Assembly (NCBI GenBank): GCA_027008705.1
Contig: JALVEB010000088.1
Location: 1 to 34,668 of the forward strand
Reading direction: 5' to 3'
DNA length: 34,668 nucleotides
DNA from: Sedimenticola sp.
GTDB lineage: Bacteria; Pseudomonadota; Gammaproteobacteria; Chromatiales; Chromatiaceae
Shown: positions 26,013 to 34,303 of the stretch, in pieces
Position numbering within the stretch: position 1 is the first letter of the stretch
How the letters are laid out: the number at the start of each line of letters is the position of its first letter
Translations under genes and position numbers: made by a program
Notes under the pieces: model-generated
The model's input: the letters and a program-made list of their open reading frames with translations, nothing else
The model's database searches: none
Told to the model about the DNA's origin: nothing

Positions 26013-26369
26013 ATGCAGCACATTCTCGTCGTCGACGACTCGCTTACCGAACGCACCCGCCTAGCCGGCATCCTGAAGGACGCCGGCTACCAAGTGCTGA
26101 CCGCCAGCTCCGGTAACGAGGCGGCCACGATCGCCAAAAACCAGCACCCGGACCTGATCTTTCTCGATATCATCATGGACGATGGCGACGGATACAAAAC
26201 CTGTCGCGACCTGAAACGAGACGACGAGACAAAAAAAATTCCTGTCATCATGGTTTCGAGCAAATCCAACAGCGTCGACAAGAAATGGGCGATGAAACTC
26301 GGCGCCAGCGCCTATATCACCAAGCCCTACGAGGCCGAGGACATCCTCGCGGAACTCGAAAAACTCTGA
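26013..26369 (+). CDS. PilG/PilH-like single-domain response regulator
   Basis: 118 aa, a stand-alone receiver domain. Acidic pocket D8/D9 (VVDDS), phosphoacceptor D52 (IFLDIIMDDGDG), Ser82 in the switch position and Lys104 (ITKPY). The wording (MQHILVVDDSLTERTRLAGIL ... MKLGASAYITKPYEAEDIL) resembles the PilG/PilH receivers of type IV pilus chemosensing more than flagellar CheY. It has no output domain, so it would act by binding a partner such as a pilus motor protein. First gene of the operon; cheW starts 14 bp after its stop. Confidence 0.88.
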   Translation: MQHILVVDDSLTERTRLAGILKDAGYQVLTASSGNEAATIAKNQHPDLIFLDIIMDDGDGYKTCRDLKRDDETKKIPVIMVSSKSNSVDKKWAMKLGASAYITKPYEAEDILAELEKL

Positions 26370-26382
26370 GGCAACATGGTCC

Positions 26383-26973
26383 ATGCAGTCCCAACACGAG
26401 AACTCACCCGCGGTAAACGCCGTTGCCGGCCCAGACGCCTTCCCCGAGGCTTCGATACGGCCGCAGGATACCGCGGTCGGGCGCGCGCTCGACGCCATGG
26501 CGATGCGCTATGTCGTCGTCAGCTCCGGCGTTACACTGTTATTGCAGGCCGGCCTGACGATGGAGGTATTGGAAGACGTCGAGCGCCATTTCATCCCGCA
26601 TGCGCCAACCTGGTGCGATGGCGTGGTCAACCTGCGCGGAGAACTGCTGCCGATCGTCGTTCCCGGCCGCTTGCTCGAAAAAGCGCCCACGGCCGAAGCG
26701 GCCCCGAGCCGTCGTTATCTGCTGGTTCTGCGTCCGGAATCCAGCGCGCCCGTCGCGATCCCGTTGGACCAACTGCCGGACAAAACCCGCTTCTCCGAGC
26801 TCTCGCCCACCGCCCTGCCCGGCGGGCTGCCCGCGGCCATCACCGCGGCCTACCGCTTGGGGGAGCGGACCCTGCTCGAACTCGACCACGCGGCCTTGCT
26901 CGAATCATTGCGGCCCGAGCCGGACACGCTCCCCGCATCGGGCCGACAGACGGTCGAAACCGGGGAATCCTAG
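26383..26973 (+). CDS. PilI-like CheW coupling protein
   Basis: 196 aa. The CheW domain spans about 40-190, with the characteristic WCDGVVNLRGELLPIV at 77-92. It should bridge the MCP and CheA at the membrane. The first 38 residues are polar and variable. GAGG at 26368-26371 overlaps the end of the previous gene and is 11 bases from this start, so an internal start is possible. The downstream binding-protein gene begins after a 283-bp gap. Confidence 0.85.
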   Translation: MQSQHENSPAVNAVAGPDAFPEASIRPQDTAVGRALDAMAMRYVVVSSGVTLLLQAGLTMEVLEDVERHFIPHAPTWCDGVVNLRGELLPIVVPGRLLEKAPTAEAAPSRRYLLVLRPESSAPVAIPLDQLPDKTRFSELSPTALPGGLPAAITAAYRLGERTLLELDHAALLESLRPEPDTLPASGRQTVETGES

Positions 26974-27256
26974 CGACCTGATTCCCCACCGCTCTGGCGA
27001 ACTCCACCCGGCGAACCTCTGCCATCGACTCGCGTTGAAACGCTCTTGACGCGGGATTGCACCACCCAAGATGACGAAAATCAACAACCCAGGCATATTC
27101 CGCATTTATATTTATCGTATGGTCCGAGAAACGGATAAGGATCCGAATCAGAATGGATACGCAACATTACGACAGGAAACCCGGAACCCACGCGCGGACG
27201 AAACGACCGCCGCCGTGAAACCTTAGTTTGAAACAGGCATTAGTCAAGGCATACCC
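26974..27256 (+). other. 283-bp gap before the binding-protein gene
   Basis: No gene supported. An AT-rich patch (about 27098-27120, CATTTATATTTATCG) could hold a promoter, but no paired -35/-10 was convincing. AAGG at 27246-27249 is the probable ribosome binding site of the next gene. The gap suggests that the binding protein may have its own transcription start as well as read-through from cheW. Confidence 0.3.
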
Positions 27257-28573
27257 ATGAAAACCGATTCATCCCCGACCCCTCCCATCCCCGCGCCCGT
27301 GGCGATCCCGCCCATCCACGGCAATACGCCGGCATCATCCAAGCCGGGGGGATTCGCCCTCCGCGGCTTGTTGATTGTCCTTCTTGCGCTCGGAAACTCC
27401 ACGCCCGCGCACGCCGCCGGGCAGGGCATCACGCCAAAGCGCATCCTCCTCGGCGGAGTGATGGATCTGAAGGGGCGCTCGAAAGGCTTGGGGCTGGGCA
27501 TGTCCAGCGGCATCCAGGCCGCGTTGGAAGGCCAGAAGATCGGCCCGCGACAGATCCAGTACGAGGTACGCAACGACTCCTACAACCCGAAGAAAACCAT
27601 CGAGGCCACGCGCCGGCTGATCGAACGCGGCGTGTTCCTGTTCGCCGGCAATGTCGGCACTCCGACCGCCAAGGTCTCGCTGCCGATCCTGAAGAAACAG
27701 GGGATTCCGGCGGTGGGCTTCTTCACCGGCGCCGGATTGTTGCGCACGCCCGAGGCCACCAACGTCATTAACTACCGCGCCAGCTACAGCCAGGAGATTG
27801 CGGCGGTCATCGACAGCGCGCTGAAGCATGGCCTCCAGGCCGACGAGATCTGCGCCTATGTCCAGAACGACGCCTATGGCATGGCCGGCATCCAGGGCCT
27901 CATCGATGCGCTGCGCCAGCGGGAGGACAGCGCCGGGATCGTCGCCAAACTCGAGGCACTGCGCAAACTGCCCGGCGACAACCCGCCGCGCAACGGCATC
28001 GGCCCGGTCGGCGTCTACCAACGCAATACCTATCTCGCGCGACCCGGCTACGAATCCCTGAAACAATGGGAGAAAGCGAACGATACCCAATGCCGCCTGG
28101 TCGTCACCGTCGGCTCCTATACCTCGGTGGCGAAGTTCATCGGCTATGCGCGTTACAAACACGAGAACTGGCTGTTCAGCGCGGTTTCGTTCACCGGCGC
28201 CGAAAACTTCCGCTCCGCGCTGAAGGAGATGAATACCGAGAACCGGGTCATCATGACCCAGGTCGTACCGCATCTCGACAGCAAGCTGGAGATCGTCCAG
28301 CAGGCGCGCAAGGCGCTCGGCGAGCACTTCAATTCGGTATCGCTGGAAGGCTATATCGTCGGCAAGCTGATTCTGCACGGCCTCCGGAATATTGACGGAG
28401 AACCGACCCGGCGCGCCTTTCTCGACGCACTGCTCGGGAAATCGTTCCAACTCGGTGGTCTGAAAATGGACTTCACCGATGACAACCAGGGCTCCGACCT
28501 GGTTACGCTGACACTCCTGAAGAACGGCGAGTGGCGCCCGATGCGGGAGCGTGACTGGGCAGCCATCCGCTGA
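27257..28573 (+). CDS. Periplasmic type I substrate-binding protein (LivK-like, Peripla_BP_6)
   Basis: 438 aa. The start is followed by an unusually long Pro-rich n-region (about 1-35), then a hydrophobic core (GLLIVLLALGNS) and a cut site PAHA/AGQG near 53. The rest is a branched-chain-amino-acid-receptor fold: ILLGGVMDLKGRSKGLG (opening strand), then FAGNVGTPTAKVSLPILKKQGIPAVG and ICAYVQNDAYGMAGIQGLIDAL. It should bind a small ligand in the periplasm. No permease or ATPase genes are near; it sits between cheW and an MCP, 66 bp before the latter. Likely a ligand presenter for chemosensing rather than a transport component (inference). Confidence 0.85.
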   Translation: MKTDSSPTPPIPAPVAIPPIHGNTPASSKPGGFALRGLLIVLLALGNSTPAHAAGQGITPKRILLGGVMDLKGRSKGLGLGMSSGIQAALEGQKIGPRQIQYEVRNDSYNPKKTIEATRRLIERGVFLFAGNVGTPTAKVSLPILKKQGIPAVGFFTGAGLLRTPEATNVINYRASYSQEIAAVIDSALKHGLQADEICAYVQNDAYGMAGIQGLIDALRQREDSAGIVAKLEALRKLPGDNPPRNGIGPVGVYQRNTYLARPGYESLKQWEKANDTQCRLVVTVGSYTSVAKFIGYARYKHENWLFSAVSFTGAENFRSALKEMNTENRVIMTQVVPHLDSKLEIVQQARKALGEHFNSVSLEGYIVGKLILHGLRNIDGEPTRRAFLDALLGKSFQLGGLKMDFTDDNQGSDLVTLTLLKNGEWRPMRERDWAAIR

Positions 28574-28639
28574 CCCACACGGCCCACGTATTCAACCCGT
28601 ACTCTACCGAACCGACGCTAGCTCACGCAGGAAACCAGC

Positions 28640-30451
28640 ATGTCCACCAACTTCACCAAGCATTCCAAACTGAATCACCTCTCCCTGGCCACCCGCATCC
28701 TCTGGCTGATCATCCTCGCGATCTTTCTGATCGGCCTGATCGGCGCGCTTGCCGGCTTGGCGCTTCAACAAGACCTACGTGCACTGGACCAGACCAGCCG
28801 CATCGCCACGCGCCTGACTCTCAGCAGCAACCTGATCGACCAGATCAACAACTACCGCACGCTGCTTTACGAAGTCAACAACGGCATCCGCACCTGGGCC
28901 GACGCGCGCAAGGCGCTGGAGGATACCCGCCAGTCCCTGCTCGCCAGTCTCAAGCTATTTCAGCAAAGCGAACAGGACCAAGAGAGGGCCGCTCAGATCG
29001 AACAACTCACCCAGGCCTTTCTGCCGGACCTCGACGAAGCGGGTAAGCTACTCAGGGCCGAGAACCACGCCAACCTGTCCCTGTTCGTCACCAATGACAT
29101 GAACATCCCGCTGACTCCTTTACTCGCGGCCTTGCATGAACAGCAGGCCGAGGACGCCCAGGGTTCGCAGCAACTACTGGACGAAGCGCGGAAACATACC
29201 CAGCAATCGTTGCTCGCCGCGCTCGTCGTCAGCCTCATCGGCTTGTTCCTGATGATCCTGCTGGGTTATCTGATCTACCGTTCGATCACCGCCCCGACCC
29301 GCGCCCTGGTGGACACCGTGCACAAGCTGTCGCAGGGCGAGTTCGGCGCGCGCGCGCCGATCCACGGCAGCGACGAGCTGGCCGAACTCGGCCGGGCGCT
29401 GAACCAGCTGCTCGACGACCGCGTCGCCACGCTGAATCAGATCGAGCGCAACCACGAACAGCTCAACGACTCGGTGTTCGCATTGCTCGAGGCAGTGAGC
29501 GAACTCAGCGACCGCAACCTGACCGTCCGCGCCGAGGTCACCGAGGATGCCACCGGGCCGCTGGCGGACGCCATCAACCAGCTCGCCGAGGACACCACCG
29601 AGGTACTCAGCCAGGTCCGGGAGATCGCGCTCGAGGTCGACAAAACCGCCAGCGAGATCAACCAGCACGCCCAGTCGATCAACCAGATCGCAGCGGTCGA
29701 GCAAGCCGAGGCGGAAAAGACCGCCGCCGAGCTCGATACCATGAGCAAGCGCTTCGACAGCATCGCGACCGCCGCCAAGGTGATGAACGACACCGCCGAG
29801 GAGACCGCCGAAACCACCGGGCGCGCGCACCAATCGGTAAGCCGGACGCTCGACAGCATGCAGGAGATCCGCGACAAGACGCTGGACACCGGCAAGCGCA
29901 TCAAGCAGCTCGGTGAACGCTCCCAGGAGATCACCCACATCGTCGACGTCATCAATACCGTGGCCGAGCGCACCACCGTGCTCGCGCTGAACGCCAGCAT
30001 GCAGGCCGCCGCCGCCGGCGAGGCCGGACGCGGCTTCTCGGTGGTCGCCGAGGAGATCCAGCGTCTCTCCGAGAGCTCGCGCGAATCGACCAGCCAGATC
30101 GCCACACTGATCCGCAACATCCAGCTCGAGACCAACGAAACCATCCGCACGATGGACCGCACCATCGAGCAGGTCAGCGAAGGCTCCAAGCTGGCCGAGA
30201 ACGCCGGACGCGAGATGGAACAGGCGCAAGCGACCACCACTCGACTGGTCACCGAGGTCGCCCAGATCTCCGAGGCCTCTCAGCAGCAGGCGCGCGCCGG
30301 AAAGGCCTTGCAGACCCGTGCCAAACGCATCGTCAGCGCCACCAAGACCACTGGCGAACGCCTGCGCATGCAATCCCGGCTGATCCAGAAGCTGGCCGAC
30401 TACGCGCGCCAACTGGTCGACGCGGTCGGCGTGTTCAAGCTCGACAAATGA
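28640..30451 (+). CDS. PilJ-like methyl-accepting chemotaxis protein
   Basis: 603 aa inner-membrane receptor. TM1 about 20-43, a helical periplasmic domain of about 145 residues (44-190), TM2 about 191-214, then a HAMP domain (about 213-265, with P219) and a second HAMP-like unit (about 285-335, DRNLTVRAEVTEDATGPLADAIN). The signalling hairpin tip is RTTVLALNASMQAAAAGEAGRGFSVV (about 445-469, in two halves), with the Ser-Met-Gln / AGEAGRGF form typical of PilJ rather than flagellar MCPs. The periplasmic part has no recognised Cache or TarH motif. AGGA seven bases upstream fixes the start. Followed 49 bp later by cheA. Confidence 0.9.
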   Translation: MSTNFTKHSKLNHLSLATRILWLIILAIFLIGLIGALAGLALQQDLRALDQTSRIATRLTLSSNLIDQINNYRTLLYEVNNGIRTWADARKALEDTRQSLLASLKLFQQSEQDQERAAQIEQLTQAFLPDLDEAGKLLRAENHANLSLFVTNDMNIPLTPLLAALHEQQAEDAQGSQQLLDEARKHTQQSLLAALVVSLIGLFLMILLGYLIYRSITAPTRALVDTVHKLSQGEFGARAPIHGSDELAELGRALNQLLDDRVATLNQIERNHEQLNDSVFALLEAVSELSDRNLTVRAEVTEDATGPLADAINQLAEDTTEVLSQVREIALEVDKTASEINQHAQSINQIAAVEQAEAEKTAAELDTMSKRFDSIATAAKVMNDTAEETAETTGRAHQSVSRTLDSMQEIRDKTLDTGKRIKQLGERSQEITHIVDVINTVAERTTVLALNASMQAAAAGEAGRGFSVVAEEIQRLSESSRESTSQIATLIRNIQLETNETIRTMDRTIEQVSEGSKLAENAGREMEQAQATTTRLVTEVAQISEASQQQARAGKALQTRAKRIVSATKTTGERLRMQSRLIQKLADYARQLVDAVGVFKLDK

Positions 30452-30500
30452 ACGTCCATACGTCACGAACCAAGCGACCGGCTTCCCGGGGAGGACGCCG

Positions 30501-33362
30501 ATGAACGCCGATGTCCCAGCGCTCAGCGAGGAGCTTGAAGACATCGCTCTGCAACTCGCCGAGCAGTGCCTGGCGCTCGTTCCGCAAACCGACTCGCCAG
30601 AGGCATCCTGGCAGCCGATGCGGGATGAATACGCGCGGCTCGCGATGACCTGCGAGCTCTATGGGCAAGACGAACTGGCAAGAACCGCGCGTTGGGGTGG
30701 AGACAACCTCGGCCGTATCGCCCGGCTTCCCGCCGACGCGCAGCGCGAACGCCTCGATCAAGGCCTGCCCTATCAATGGATCGAATACTGCGCCGCCTAC
30801 CTCGCCGACCCGGGCGAGGCTGGCCTGCTGGTGGAGCTGCGAAACAGCCTGCTCGACCCGGGATGGCCGGAAGCCCTGTCGATGGAACAGCTCGAAGCGC
30901 TGTTGACCTCGCTGTGCACCCCCGCCGACGAGCCCGCTCCCTCCGGGACGACGGCGCCGGAAGAGAGTCCTCAAGAGAGCGACACATCGGCCTACCCGCT
31001 GCGCTGGAGCGACGACGTTCATCCGGAGTTGCTCGACGCCTTCTTCATCGAGGCTCCCGTCCAGGCGGCGCAACTGGCGGGCCATCTGCGCGCCATCGCC
31101 GCCAGCGAGGGCGTCGCCGACGAGGAAAGCTGCCGCACCGCGACCCGTCTCGCGCATACCCTGAAGGGCGCCAGCAGCGTGGTCGGCATCGACGCGCTCA
31201 CCGAGCTCACCCACCGGCTCGAAGACATCCTGAACCACTCCGTCGCCAGCCCCCTGCCGGCCCCGCTGCGCGAAGACATGGGCGCCGCCGCGGACTGTCT
31301 CGAGGGCCTGCTCGATGCCCTCCAGGGAAGCGCGCCGCCACCCGACAACTTCCCCGCTCTGCGCGATGCGCTCGAAACCTGGCGCAAGCGCCTGGAGGAG
31401 GAAGCCGATGAAGAACCGCAAAGCGCGGCCGGGGCGGAAGCAGAGCCGACGGCCGAAAACCCGCGAGCGGCGCGCGCGGGCGGCTTGCGCCACGCCAGCG
31501 AGCCCAAGCTGCTGGTGCCGGTCTCGCTGGTCGACCGGCTGCTGAACCTGGTCGATGAAATGGCGACCACCACCGGGCGCGCGCTGAGCGAACTCGAGCG
31601 CGTGCTGGATTACGGCCTCCAGGCGCGCGAGCAAGACCAGCGGGCGAGGCGCATCCTCGCCGAATACGCCAGTCTGGTCGACGAGGCGCTGGCCGCCGGC
31701 ATCGACGAGAGCCCGTCCGCGGGCGACGGCGACGAACCGTTCGATGCCCTCGAGATGGATCGTTACAACAACGCCCACGGCGTCAACAACATGCTCGAGG
31801 AGACCCTCGCCGACAGCCGCGAGATCCACCAGGCCAGCACCCGCCACCTGCGTCGCCTGAACGACATCCTGCACGACCAGAACCGGGTGCGCGAGGAGAT
31901 CGGCGCGACCCTGCTGCGCACCCGCCTCGTCCCGTTCCGCACCCTCGTGCCCCGACTCGAGCGCATCGTCCGGGAGACCTGCCGCGCCACCGGAAAACGC
32001 GCTGAACTGGTGGTCGAGGAAAACCAGTTGGCGCTCGATACCGACATCATCAACGATCTCGCCGAACCGCTGTTGCATCTGCTGCGAAACGCCGTCGACC
32101 ACGGTATCGAGCCGGCCGGGGTGCGTAGCGCGCTGGGCAAGCCGGCCAGCGGACGCATCACCCTTTCCGGCCGCCGCATCGGCAACCAGATCGAGCTGAC
32201 GCTGCATGACGACGGCGCTGGCCTGGACCCCGAGCGGATCCGCCGGCGCGCGATCGAGCGCGGTCTGATCGACGCCGACAGCGAGCTCGACGAGGCGGCC
32301 ACGCTGGCGCTGGTGATGCGGCCCGGATTCTCGACCCGCGACGAGGTCAGCACCGTCTCCGGACGCGGCATCGGCATGGACATCGCCCAGGCCACTCTGC
32401 AACGCATGCGCGGCAGCCTGCGCATCGAAAGCCGACTCGGCGAGGGCACCCGTATCCATCTGCGGGTTCCGGCCACACTGGTATCGGTCAACGCGGTGAT
32501 CGCGCGCGCCGGCGGTCACGTCTTCGCCGTTCCCGGAGACAGCATCGCCCAACTGCTCTACATCGACGACGACGCCCTCGAACTCGGCGAATGGCCGGAG
32601 GCGCTCGCCGCCTACCACCCCGGCGAGGCCTGCTGGCGCTACCGCCACGACGGAGAGACGCTCGCGATCGAGCCGCTCGAGGCGCTGCTGGGGCTGCCCA
32701 CGCGCGAGATCGAGCAGGCCGCGGGCGCAACCGCCCTGTTGATCGAAACCACCGCCGGCGAACGCCATCTGCTCCATGTCGACGAGATCGCACAAACCCG
32801 CAACATCCTGCTGAAGCCGCTGGAGCCCTACCTCGGCAACGTGCCCGGCGTGATCGGCGCCTGTCTGCTGAACGACGGCGATGTCGCGCCGGTGCTCGAC
32901 ATCGCGCGTCTGCTCGACTACCGCCGCGACGGCTTCGAGCCATCGCGCCGGCCGCCGCCGGCCCCGACCGGGCATCGCGCCGCGCCGGACGAGATACTGA
33001 TCGTCGACGACTCCCTCAGCAACCGCAAGGCGCTGAGCCTGATGATCGAGCAACTGGGCTACACCCCGCTGACCGCAATCGACGGCATCGACGCACTCGA
33101 GCGCCTCGAAGAACACCGGCCCGCGCTGGTGCTGACCGACCTGGAGATGCCGCGCATGAACGGCATCGACCTGACCCAGACGCTCCGACAACAACCAGAA
33201 ATCAGCGAGATCCCGGTGGTGATGATCACCTCCCGTTCGTCGCGAAAGCACCGCGAGCAGGCCCGCGAGGCCGGCGTCGACGACTACCTGACCAAGCCGG
33301 TCGACGACGAAACCCTGAGCGCCTGCGTGCGACGCTGGACAAGCAACGAGGTACCGGCATGA
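30501..33362 (+). CDS. ChpA-like hybrid CheA histidine kinase (Hpt-kinase-CheW-REC)
   Basis: 953 aa. Residues 1-140 are helical and resemble a degenerate Hpt; 170-290 is an Hpt with H219 in TRLAHTLKGASS. The dimerisation region is about 335-475, and the ATPase has the N-box HLLRNAVDHG (526-535), G1 DDGAGLD (570-576) and G2 GRGIGMD (621-627). A CheW-like domain covers about 655-805, and a C-terminal receiver 830-945 has phosphoacceptor D880 (LTDLEMPRMNG). It should autophosphorylate in response to the MCP and pass phosphate to its own receiver and the two separate regulators. ChpA of Pseudomonas is much longer, with more Hpt domains. GGGGAGGA (30488-30495) is a strong ribosome binding site. 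Confidence 0.92.
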   Translation: MNADVPALSEELEDIALQLAEQCLALVPQTDSPEASWQPMRDEYARLAMTCELYGQDELARTARWGGDNLGRIARLPADAQRERLDQGLPYQWIEYCAAYLADPGEAGLLVELRNSLLDPGWPEALSMEQLEALLTSLCTPADEPAPSGTTAPEESPQESDTSAYPLRWSDDVHPELLDAFFIEAPVQAAQLAGHLRAIAASEGVADEESCRTATRLAHTLKGASSVVGIDALTELTHRLEDILNHSVASPLPAPLREDMGAAADCLEGLLDALQGSAPPPDNFPALRDALETWRKRLEEEADEEPQSAAGAEAEPTAENPRAARAGGLRHASEPKLLVPVSLVDRLLNLVDEMATTTGRALSELERVLDYGLQAREQDQRARRILAEYASLVDEALAAGIDESPSAGDGDEPFDALEMDRYNNAHGVNNMLEETLADSREIHQASTRHLRRLNDILHDQNRVREEIGATLLRTRLVPFRTLVPRLERIVRETCRATGKRAELVVEENQLALDTDIINDLAEPLLHLLRNAVDHGIEPAGVRSALGKPASGRITLSGRRIGNQIELTLHDDGAGLDPERIRRRAIERGLIDADSELDEAATLALVMRPGFSTRDEVSTVSGRGIGMDIAQATLQRMRGSLRIESRLGEGTRIHLRVPATLVSVNAVIARAGGHVFAVPGDSIAQLLYIDDDALELGEWPEALAAYHPGEACWRYRHDGETLAIEPLEALLGLPTREIEQAAGATALLIETTAGERHLLHVDEIAQTRNILLKPLEPYLGNVPGVIGACLLNDGDVAPVLDIARLLDYRRDGFEPSRRPPPAPTGHRAAPDEILIVDDSLSNRKALSLMIEQLGYTPLTAIDGIDALERLEEHRPALVLTDLEMPRMNGIDLTQTLRQQPEISEIPVVMITSRSSRKHREQAREAGVDDYLTKPVDDETLSACVRRWTSNEVPA

Positions 33363-34303
33363 AACTGCGCATCCATCTCATCGACCTGGACGACAGCGAT
33401 GCCGCCCTGCTCGGGCGCATCCTCGAATTCGCCAACCGTCAGCAGCGTGAGTACCGCATCGTCCCCACCGCCAGCGAGGCCGATCTGTTGATCTGCGACG
33501 GCCGCCCCGAACGCCGTGAGCCGGCGCGCGCGGCGGCGCGCGACAGCAGCCTCCCCTTGCTTCTGATCGGCGCGCAAGGCCCATCGATGGAGAACGAGCA
33601 CGCGCTGGCGCGACCGCTGCTGGTGACCCGCGTGTTGCGCGAGCTCGACCGCATCGCCGCGCAAGCCGCCGAGCGCCCATCGCCCACCGCCGATACGACG
33701 CCCGCCCCAGTCGAAACGCCCACCGCGAGCGAGACGCCCGCGCCCGCCGGGACATCCGCCACCGCGCTGGCGTGCGTGCAACGCTATGCCTGGCAGGCCC
33801 GCCTGGAACGGGCCGCCGCGCGCCCGGCATCGGCGGTGGCGGAACCCGCATCCCCGCCAGCCCAAGCCGCTGCCGGCGAGACACCGGAATCCGGCCCGGA
33901 ATCCGCTTCGCGCTACCGCGCGCTGGTCGTCGACGACAGCCTCGCGATCCGCAAGCAGTTGGAGCTGGAGTTGCGCGACGCCGGCATCGCCGCGGACTTC
34001 GCCGAGGACGGCGAGATTGCGCTCGAGAAAGCCGCCAACAATCATTACGACCTGATCTTTCTCGACATCATGATGCCCGGCATCGACGGCTATGAGGTCT
34101 GTCGCGAGCTACGCAAGCAACCCCAATGGAAGAAAACCCCGATCACCATGCTCAGTGGCAAGACCTCGCCGCTCGACGAGGTCCAGGGCGTGCTTGCGGG
34201 TTGCTCCACCTACCTGACCAAGCCGATCCGGCACGACGACTTCCAAAAGATGCTCGAGCGCGTCCAGCGTTGGATCGATACCGTCAAGCAGAAGTCAGAC
34301 TGA
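33359..34303 (+). CDS. Response regulator: degenerate receiver-like half + intact receiver
   Basis: 314 aa. Residues 186-305 are a complete receiver: VVDDS (190-194), phosphoacceptor D236 (IFLDIMMPGIDGYEVC), Lys288 (YLTKPI). Residues 1-100 have an alternating strand-helix pattern starting RIHLIDLDDSDAALLGRIL and ADLLICDGRP, like a receiver that has lost its phosphoacceptor loop. A Pro/Ala/Thr-rich linker (105-180) joins them. There is no DNA-binding or enzymatic output. The start at 33359 overlaps the cheA stop (ATGA), so the pair is translationally coupled and it is a likely phosphate target of CheA. Repeat R2 begins two bases after its stop. Confidence 0.85.
   Translation: MKLRIHLIDLDDSDAALLGRILEFANRQQREYRIVPTASEADLLICDGRPERREPARAAARDSSLPLLLIGAQGPSMENEHALARPLLVTRVLRELDRIAAQAAERPSPTADTTPAPVETPTASETPAPAGTSATALACVQRYAWQARLERAAARPASAVAEPASPPAQAAAGETPESGPESASRYRALVVDDSLAIRKQLELELRDAGIAADFAEDGEIALEKAANNHYDLIFLDIMMPGIDGYEVCRELRKQPQWKKTPITMLSGKTSPLDEVQGVLAGCSTYLTKPIRHDDFQKMLERVQRWIDTVKQKSD

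Follow-up and report, generated by a model that had tools for sequence, protein, structure and literature searches.

A conserved chemosensory operon of Gammaproteobacteria encoding a periplasmic binding protein as the putative co-receptor of a type IV pilus-type pathway

In this study, we describe a six-gene chemosensory operon of Sedimenticola sp. that encodes a secreted periplasmic binding protein (PBP) between the coupling protein CheW and the chemoreceptor (MCP). The PBP-bearing operon is real, conserved and built from known kinds of parts, and it is apparently undescribed in the open literature. We consider it fairly likely that it encodes a system of the type IV pilus (Tfp) type, supplementary to Pil-Chp, in which this dedicated binding protein conveys the signal to the receptor. 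The analysed stretch of 34,668 nucleotides (the window) makes up contig C88 in its entirety; the genome to which it belongs measures 2.9 Mb and is 99% complete. The initial annotation had proposed a chemosensory operon of six genes on one strand at 26013-34303, and this was borne out by the open reading frames and Pfam domains:

26013..26369, + strand: RR1, a single-domain receiver in a PilH/PixH-like position (Response_reg 5.4e-28; conserved Asp52, in LIFLD)
26383..26973, + strand: CheW coupling protein in a PilI-like position (CheW 1.2e-13; conserved in 49 loci)
27257..28573, + strand: PBP, a secreted type I periplasmic binding protein and proposed co-receptor (Peripla_BP_6 4.9e-26)
28640..30451, + strand: MCP chemoreceptor (MCPsignal 5e-35, HAMP 5e-13; hydropathy, AF2 model and Tsr profile match)
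30501..33362, + strand: hybrid CheA with Hpt, ATPase (HATPase_c), CheW-like and C-terminal receiver domains (Pfam)
33359..34303, + strand: RR2, a two-part response regulator (C-terminal receiver, Asp intact)

The phosphorylation residues are intact, namely the Hpt histidine of CheA (within HTLKG) and the receiver aspartates of both regulators and of CheA. A single Hpt domain was detected in CheA by Pfam, and its residues 1-170 had no Pfam match; the N-terminal domain of RR2 is conserved and likewise without a Pfam match. RR2 most likely starts at the ATG at 33359, overlapping the cheA stop, and a start within the long open frame from 32591 was set aside in favour of this codon. The gap between cheW and the PBP gene is 283 bp in the window (median of 80 bp in relatives), and that between the PBP and MCP genes has a median of 59 bp. 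In a family-level look, CheR and CheB were not among the largest conserved neighbour families, and the contig ends soon after RR2.

Both other genomes of the genus (2/2) carry the order RR1-CheW-PBP-MCP-CheA, and in one of them the operon likewise lies downstream of NAD-kinase and recN genes; judged by the operon, the closest named relatives are metagenome genomes of Sedimenticola. When named genomes were scanned with a profile of the PBP, 56 loci emerged, 54 of which were close-family members in Gammaproteobacteria, the other two (L116 and L117) being remote proteins in other genomic contexts. With few exceptions, the 54 close-family loci have the PBP gene inside the operon, between cheW and the MCP gene, and a homologue of RR1 is found at the corresponding position in 51 related loci; one fragment (L100) shows no other operon gene. 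Some 50 loci in other genera show the same gene order, which, together with its presence in both congeners, makes the arrangement far from chance. Thus, the search for the ordered gene set that the initial annotation had called for recovered it widely, and the absence of the PBP from this position in relatives, named there as a refuting outcome, was not what we found. The usual order is RR2-RR1-CheW-PBP-MCP-CheA (26 loci), RR2 is last, as in the window, in nine, and the remaining loci are incomplete or have extra PBPs. Hosts include Thiothrix, Leucothrix, Hahella, Ketobacter, Competibacteraceae, Thiotrichaceae and an Olavius symbiont. One operon contig (L065), binned with Aquificaceae, is probably misbinned, since the CheA tree puts it in a tight group with Thiotrichaceae.

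Among 369 genomes sampled evenly across Gammaproteobacteria, PBP matches fell into two groups, six strong ones (E < 1e-165, including the query itself) and weak ones (E > 1e-49). All six strong matches sit in the same operon, and the five besides the query correspond to about 1.4% of the genomes. A phylum-level sample of 397 genomes returned the query and one of these five. A single-sequence search among 55 relatives found the genus and ordinary Liv proteins only, which does not imply absence elsewhere. A scan of the viral_contigs collection gave nothing.

Several variations on this layout were observed. Four Competibacteraceae loci (L094, L095, L069 and L098) have two or three PBP genes near one MCP gene, 50-82% identical within a locus, and the paralogues of L094 and L095 are old because the first copy forms a branch of its own. 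Six loci encode, between cheW and the PBP gene and immediately before the latter, a secreted, free-standing Cache-domain protein that is possibly a second soluble input:

L076:8313-8885, Cache-domain protein (dCache_1 2e-9, below the Pfam cut-off)
L080:3445-4053, Cache-domain protein
L083:8210-8785, Cache-domain protein
L077:8264-8887, Cache-domain protein
L105:8361-8945, Cache-domain protein
L115:8378-8950, Cache-domain protein

Following cheA, 29 and 19 loci carry members of two further conserved gene families (e.g., L076:15537-16441); for one family Pfam marks the L076 member as CheW-like, and the other family looks CheW-like by eye.

We then placed the operon among chemosensory systems by trees of the MCP signalling domain and the CheA core. 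In both, the PBP operons and six sister operons that carry no PBP formed one clade (100/100) that excluded flagellar proteins as well as Pil-Chp; the CheA tree also separated this clade from CheB/CheR-linked systems. Constraining the PBP-less operons to a single clade gave a p-AU of 0.077, which neither supports nor rejects such a grouping, so the PBP may have been either gained or lost. The CheA clade joins Chp and a Deinococcus row at 95/84, and the exact sister node is weak (86/36). Judged by MCP and CheA sequences, the nearest relatives are therefore Tfp-type systems, with the exact node weakly supported. Among plasmids, only 14 records (Acinetobacter, Deinococcus and one cyanobacterium) matched the MCP signalling domain below 1e-15, and the A. 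baumannii match lies in a Pil-Chp-like operon.

Two known identities were considered and rejected. A flagellar chemotaxis system is at odds with the trees and with the 29 of 50 hosts that lack FlhA above the cut-off, so that grouping of MCP and CheA with flagellar proteins, the other refuting outcome named beforehand, did not occur. The canonical Pil-Chp system was rejected because CheA falls outside the ChpA clade (99/99), which includes a ChpA of the same genome (L054), and has one Hpt by Pfam. This genome encodes a ChpA-type CheA on C27, which groups with Pil-Chp, and a flagellar-cluster CheA on C25 (beside CheY, CheZ and FlhB), which is weakly paired with E. coli CheA; accordingly, the operon is a third system in the cell. 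The type IV pilus class assigned by the initial annotation is thus supported by the nearest relatives, but the operon is not Pil-Chp itself; its ChpA-like hybrid CheA is indeed a hybrid with a receiver, though not a member of the ChpA clade; and its PilJ-like MCP has a Tfp-type signalling domain but a four-helix-bundle (4HB) sensor in place of the PilJ domain. Its suggestion of a separate system that has a ligand-binding protein of its own still stands.

Compared with Pil-Chp (PilGHIJ-ChpA of Pseudomonas and Acinetobacter), the operon shares the order receiver-CheW-MCP-hybrid CheA as well as the Tfp-type signalling domain, and differs in its separate clade, single Hpt, 4HB sensor, operon-encoded PBP and two-part regulator. 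A cyanobacterial Pix/Tax-type operon (L166, Allocoleopsis) has the order RR (of two-part length), RR, CheW, MCP, hybrid CheA and CheW, which is the usual order described here minus the PBP; L166 itself has no PBP, and it forms a long branch in both trees that is not supported as sister to the PBP operons.

The PBP has a signal-peptide-like N terminus, and its AF2 model (pLDDT 88.4) best matched 4kv7, a Liv-type binding protein of Rhodopirellula baltica (Z 41.5, 34% identity), which is the closest solved protein by structure and sequence likeness alone. Further Liv-type binding proteins came next among the structural matches, several of which have structures with amino acids or aromatic acids. 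By fold and Pfam family the PBP belongs with transporter proteins of the LivJ/LivK type, and one could suppose that it is an ordinary component of a branched-chain amino acid transporter that lies in the operon by chance. However, the operon contains no permease gene, PF02653 (the LivHM-type permease) had no match in this 99% complete genome whereas 12 of 14 control genomes matched, and it was also absent from 11 of the 49 other host genomes. The PBP of this organism therefore cannot serve such a transporter, and the operon that carries it is tightly conserved across distant genera. We regard the transporter explanation as very improbable.

A weaker group of PBP matches in other loci (E 1e-36 to 1e-48; L144, L146 and L148-L152) adjoins membrane sensors, either histidine kinases or MCPs, and the neighbour in L146 has a TorS sensor domain; this suggests a wider clade of signalling PBPs. 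Elsewhere in the Sedimenticola sp. genome, contig C102 (L016:1575-3245) has an open frame of 557 aa in which a cytochrome-c-like region (CANCH) precedes a periplasmic-binding-protein-like one.

The receptor itself offers a candidate docking surface for a co-receptor. Its parts and the two conserved motifs of its sensor are as follows:

MCP residues 20-38: TM1
MCP residues 39-190: periplasmic four-helix bundle
MCP residues 191-209: TM2
MCP residues 211-259: HAMP
MCP residues 384-564: signalling domain
28883..28897, + strand: distal tip motif 1, residues 82-86, G-I-R-T-W (W86 invariant, 52/52)
29075..29119, + strand: distal tip motif 2, residues 146-160, L-x-L-F-x-x-N-D ... P (by conservation)

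The initial annotation had given the MCP two HAMP units: the first is certain, and the second, a weak Pfam match (E 0.09) that aligns with the matching region of relatives, is probable. The sensor (residues 39-190) was modelled by AF2 as a four-helix bundle (pLDDT 90.5), is related to Tsr by profile (4e-11) and was matched to Tsr, Tar and PcaY by Foldseek; TarH and 4HB Pfam matches were found in 16/49 and 11/49 members. Homology and the predicted fold thus identify it as a Tar/Tsr-type four-helix bundle forming one conserved family. The profile of this domain matched 51 of the 54 PBP loci; among the ORFs of the PBP-less sister operons, and among those next to the weaker PBPs, it matched none. 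In the mirror-tree analysis, PBP and sensor distances did not covary beyond what the other operon genes show (partial r 0.13, with about the same value for the signalling domain and CheA), and the analysis thus gave coevolution of PBP and sensor no specific support. Two loci depart from the pattern: L096 and L099 keep the PBP, here divergent, lipoprotein-like with a lipobox and located upstream of RR2, and have an MCP sensor that is dCache-like rather than 4HB (the Pfam match in L096 is just under the cut-off).

When conservation was mapped on the sensor, the strongly conserved residues (G82, T85 and W86; L146, L148, F149, N152 and D153; P160) clustered in two stretches, both located at the membrane-distal tip; in the alignment, the second of these falls on YFAQP of E. 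coli Tar (DYGNTGAYFAQPTQ). Within the same domain, mean entropy is 1.75 and 1.76 bits for the tip stretches, 2.57-2.77 for the helices and 2.97 for the membrane-proximal loop. The distal tip is what we take, from classical genetics, to be the part of Tar on which maltose-binding protein (MBP) docks. On the other hand, such conservation could also reflect direct ligand binding or bundle packing. The aspartate pocket of Tar is also near the distal end, and the conserved patches could be a pocket of this kind, with the MCP binding its ligand directly and the PBP delivering or buffering ligand or acting on another receptor. This is improbable in our estimation: the conserved sensor residues include no arginines like those of the Tar pocket, and the sensor-domain family co-occurs with the PBP.

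The arrangement proposed here, in which the PBP would dock on the distal tip of a 4HB sensor, is shared with E. coli Tar-MBP, Trg-RbsB, Tap-DppA and Tsr-LsrB. The E. coli chemotaxis binding proteins also serve ABC transporters, and signalling there goes to the flagella, whereas the present PBP is encoded within the operon in a genome that lacks the LivHM permease. Activation by binding proteins is established for E. coli 4HB chemoreceptors and also for TorS, LuxQ and LytS (PMC6321045). The pairs TorT-TorS, LuxP-LuxQ and XylFII-LytS have in common with our operon a binding protein and a membrane sensor (PMC6321045), but these sensors are histidine kinases and not chemoreceptor arrays, and the TorS sensor domain differs.

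With regard to output, a PilT family match was present in 50/50 hosts, 49 of them above the cut-off, vs 230 of 275 class genomes (84%); the p-value of 0.003 is optimistic because the hosts, counted whatever their completeness, are related to one another. Flagella were not enriched (FlhA above cut-off in 21/50 hosts vs 141/275 background genomes, p 0.28). The PilT enrichment is modest and fits pili without being proof. Class affinity and co-occurrence together connect the operon with type IV pili and make a twitching or surface-sensing output plausible. Alternatively, the PBP might be a dedicated co-receptor of a pathway that controls a second messenger, exopolysaccharide or a biofilm state instead of the pilus. 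Some chemosensory pathways are known to have other outputs, second-messenger control among them (PMC6829864), no pil genes were seen beside the operon in the window, and the clade is separate from Pil-Chp. This seems rather unlikely to us, although less so than the two alternatives above, considering the Tfp-type affinity of MCP and CheA and the near-universal PilT of the hosts.

In the favoured pilus-type system with its own binding protein, the PBP would close on a small solute in the periplasm and, once loaded, dock on the tip of the MCP in the manner of MBP on Tar. Docking would change the MCP-CheW-CheA complex and alter CheA activity; CheA would phosphorylate RR1 and RR2, and these would set type IV pilus extension and retraction or a related surface behaviour. 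Tip docking and ligand gating are probable, and the pilus output is plausible. In Competibacteraceae, one receptor may read several ligands through two or three PBPs. Whether the operon represents an undescribed pilus-type class, with an array gated by one to three transporter-independent PBPs drawn from a wider signalling clade, appears to us an evenly balanced question.

We found no account of a PBP within an operon of the Pil-Chp or Tfp type in the open literature, which leaves most subscription papers uncovered, and within that scope the remark of the initial annotation that known Chp operons have no type I binding protein between cheW and the MCP gene agrees with our search. For the pilus chemoreceptor PilJ of P. 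aeruginosa, input from solute-binding proteins has been raised as a possibility (PMC10896506). Here, a binding protein appears to be wired into a PilJ-related pathway in many Gammaproteobacteria, including cultured Thiothrix and Hahella, so that the question becomes testable by a one-gene deletion. It also provides a route to the ligand, as a soluble PBP can be screened in place of a membrane receptor. If the proposal is true, surface motility would gain a chemically specific and exchangeable input.
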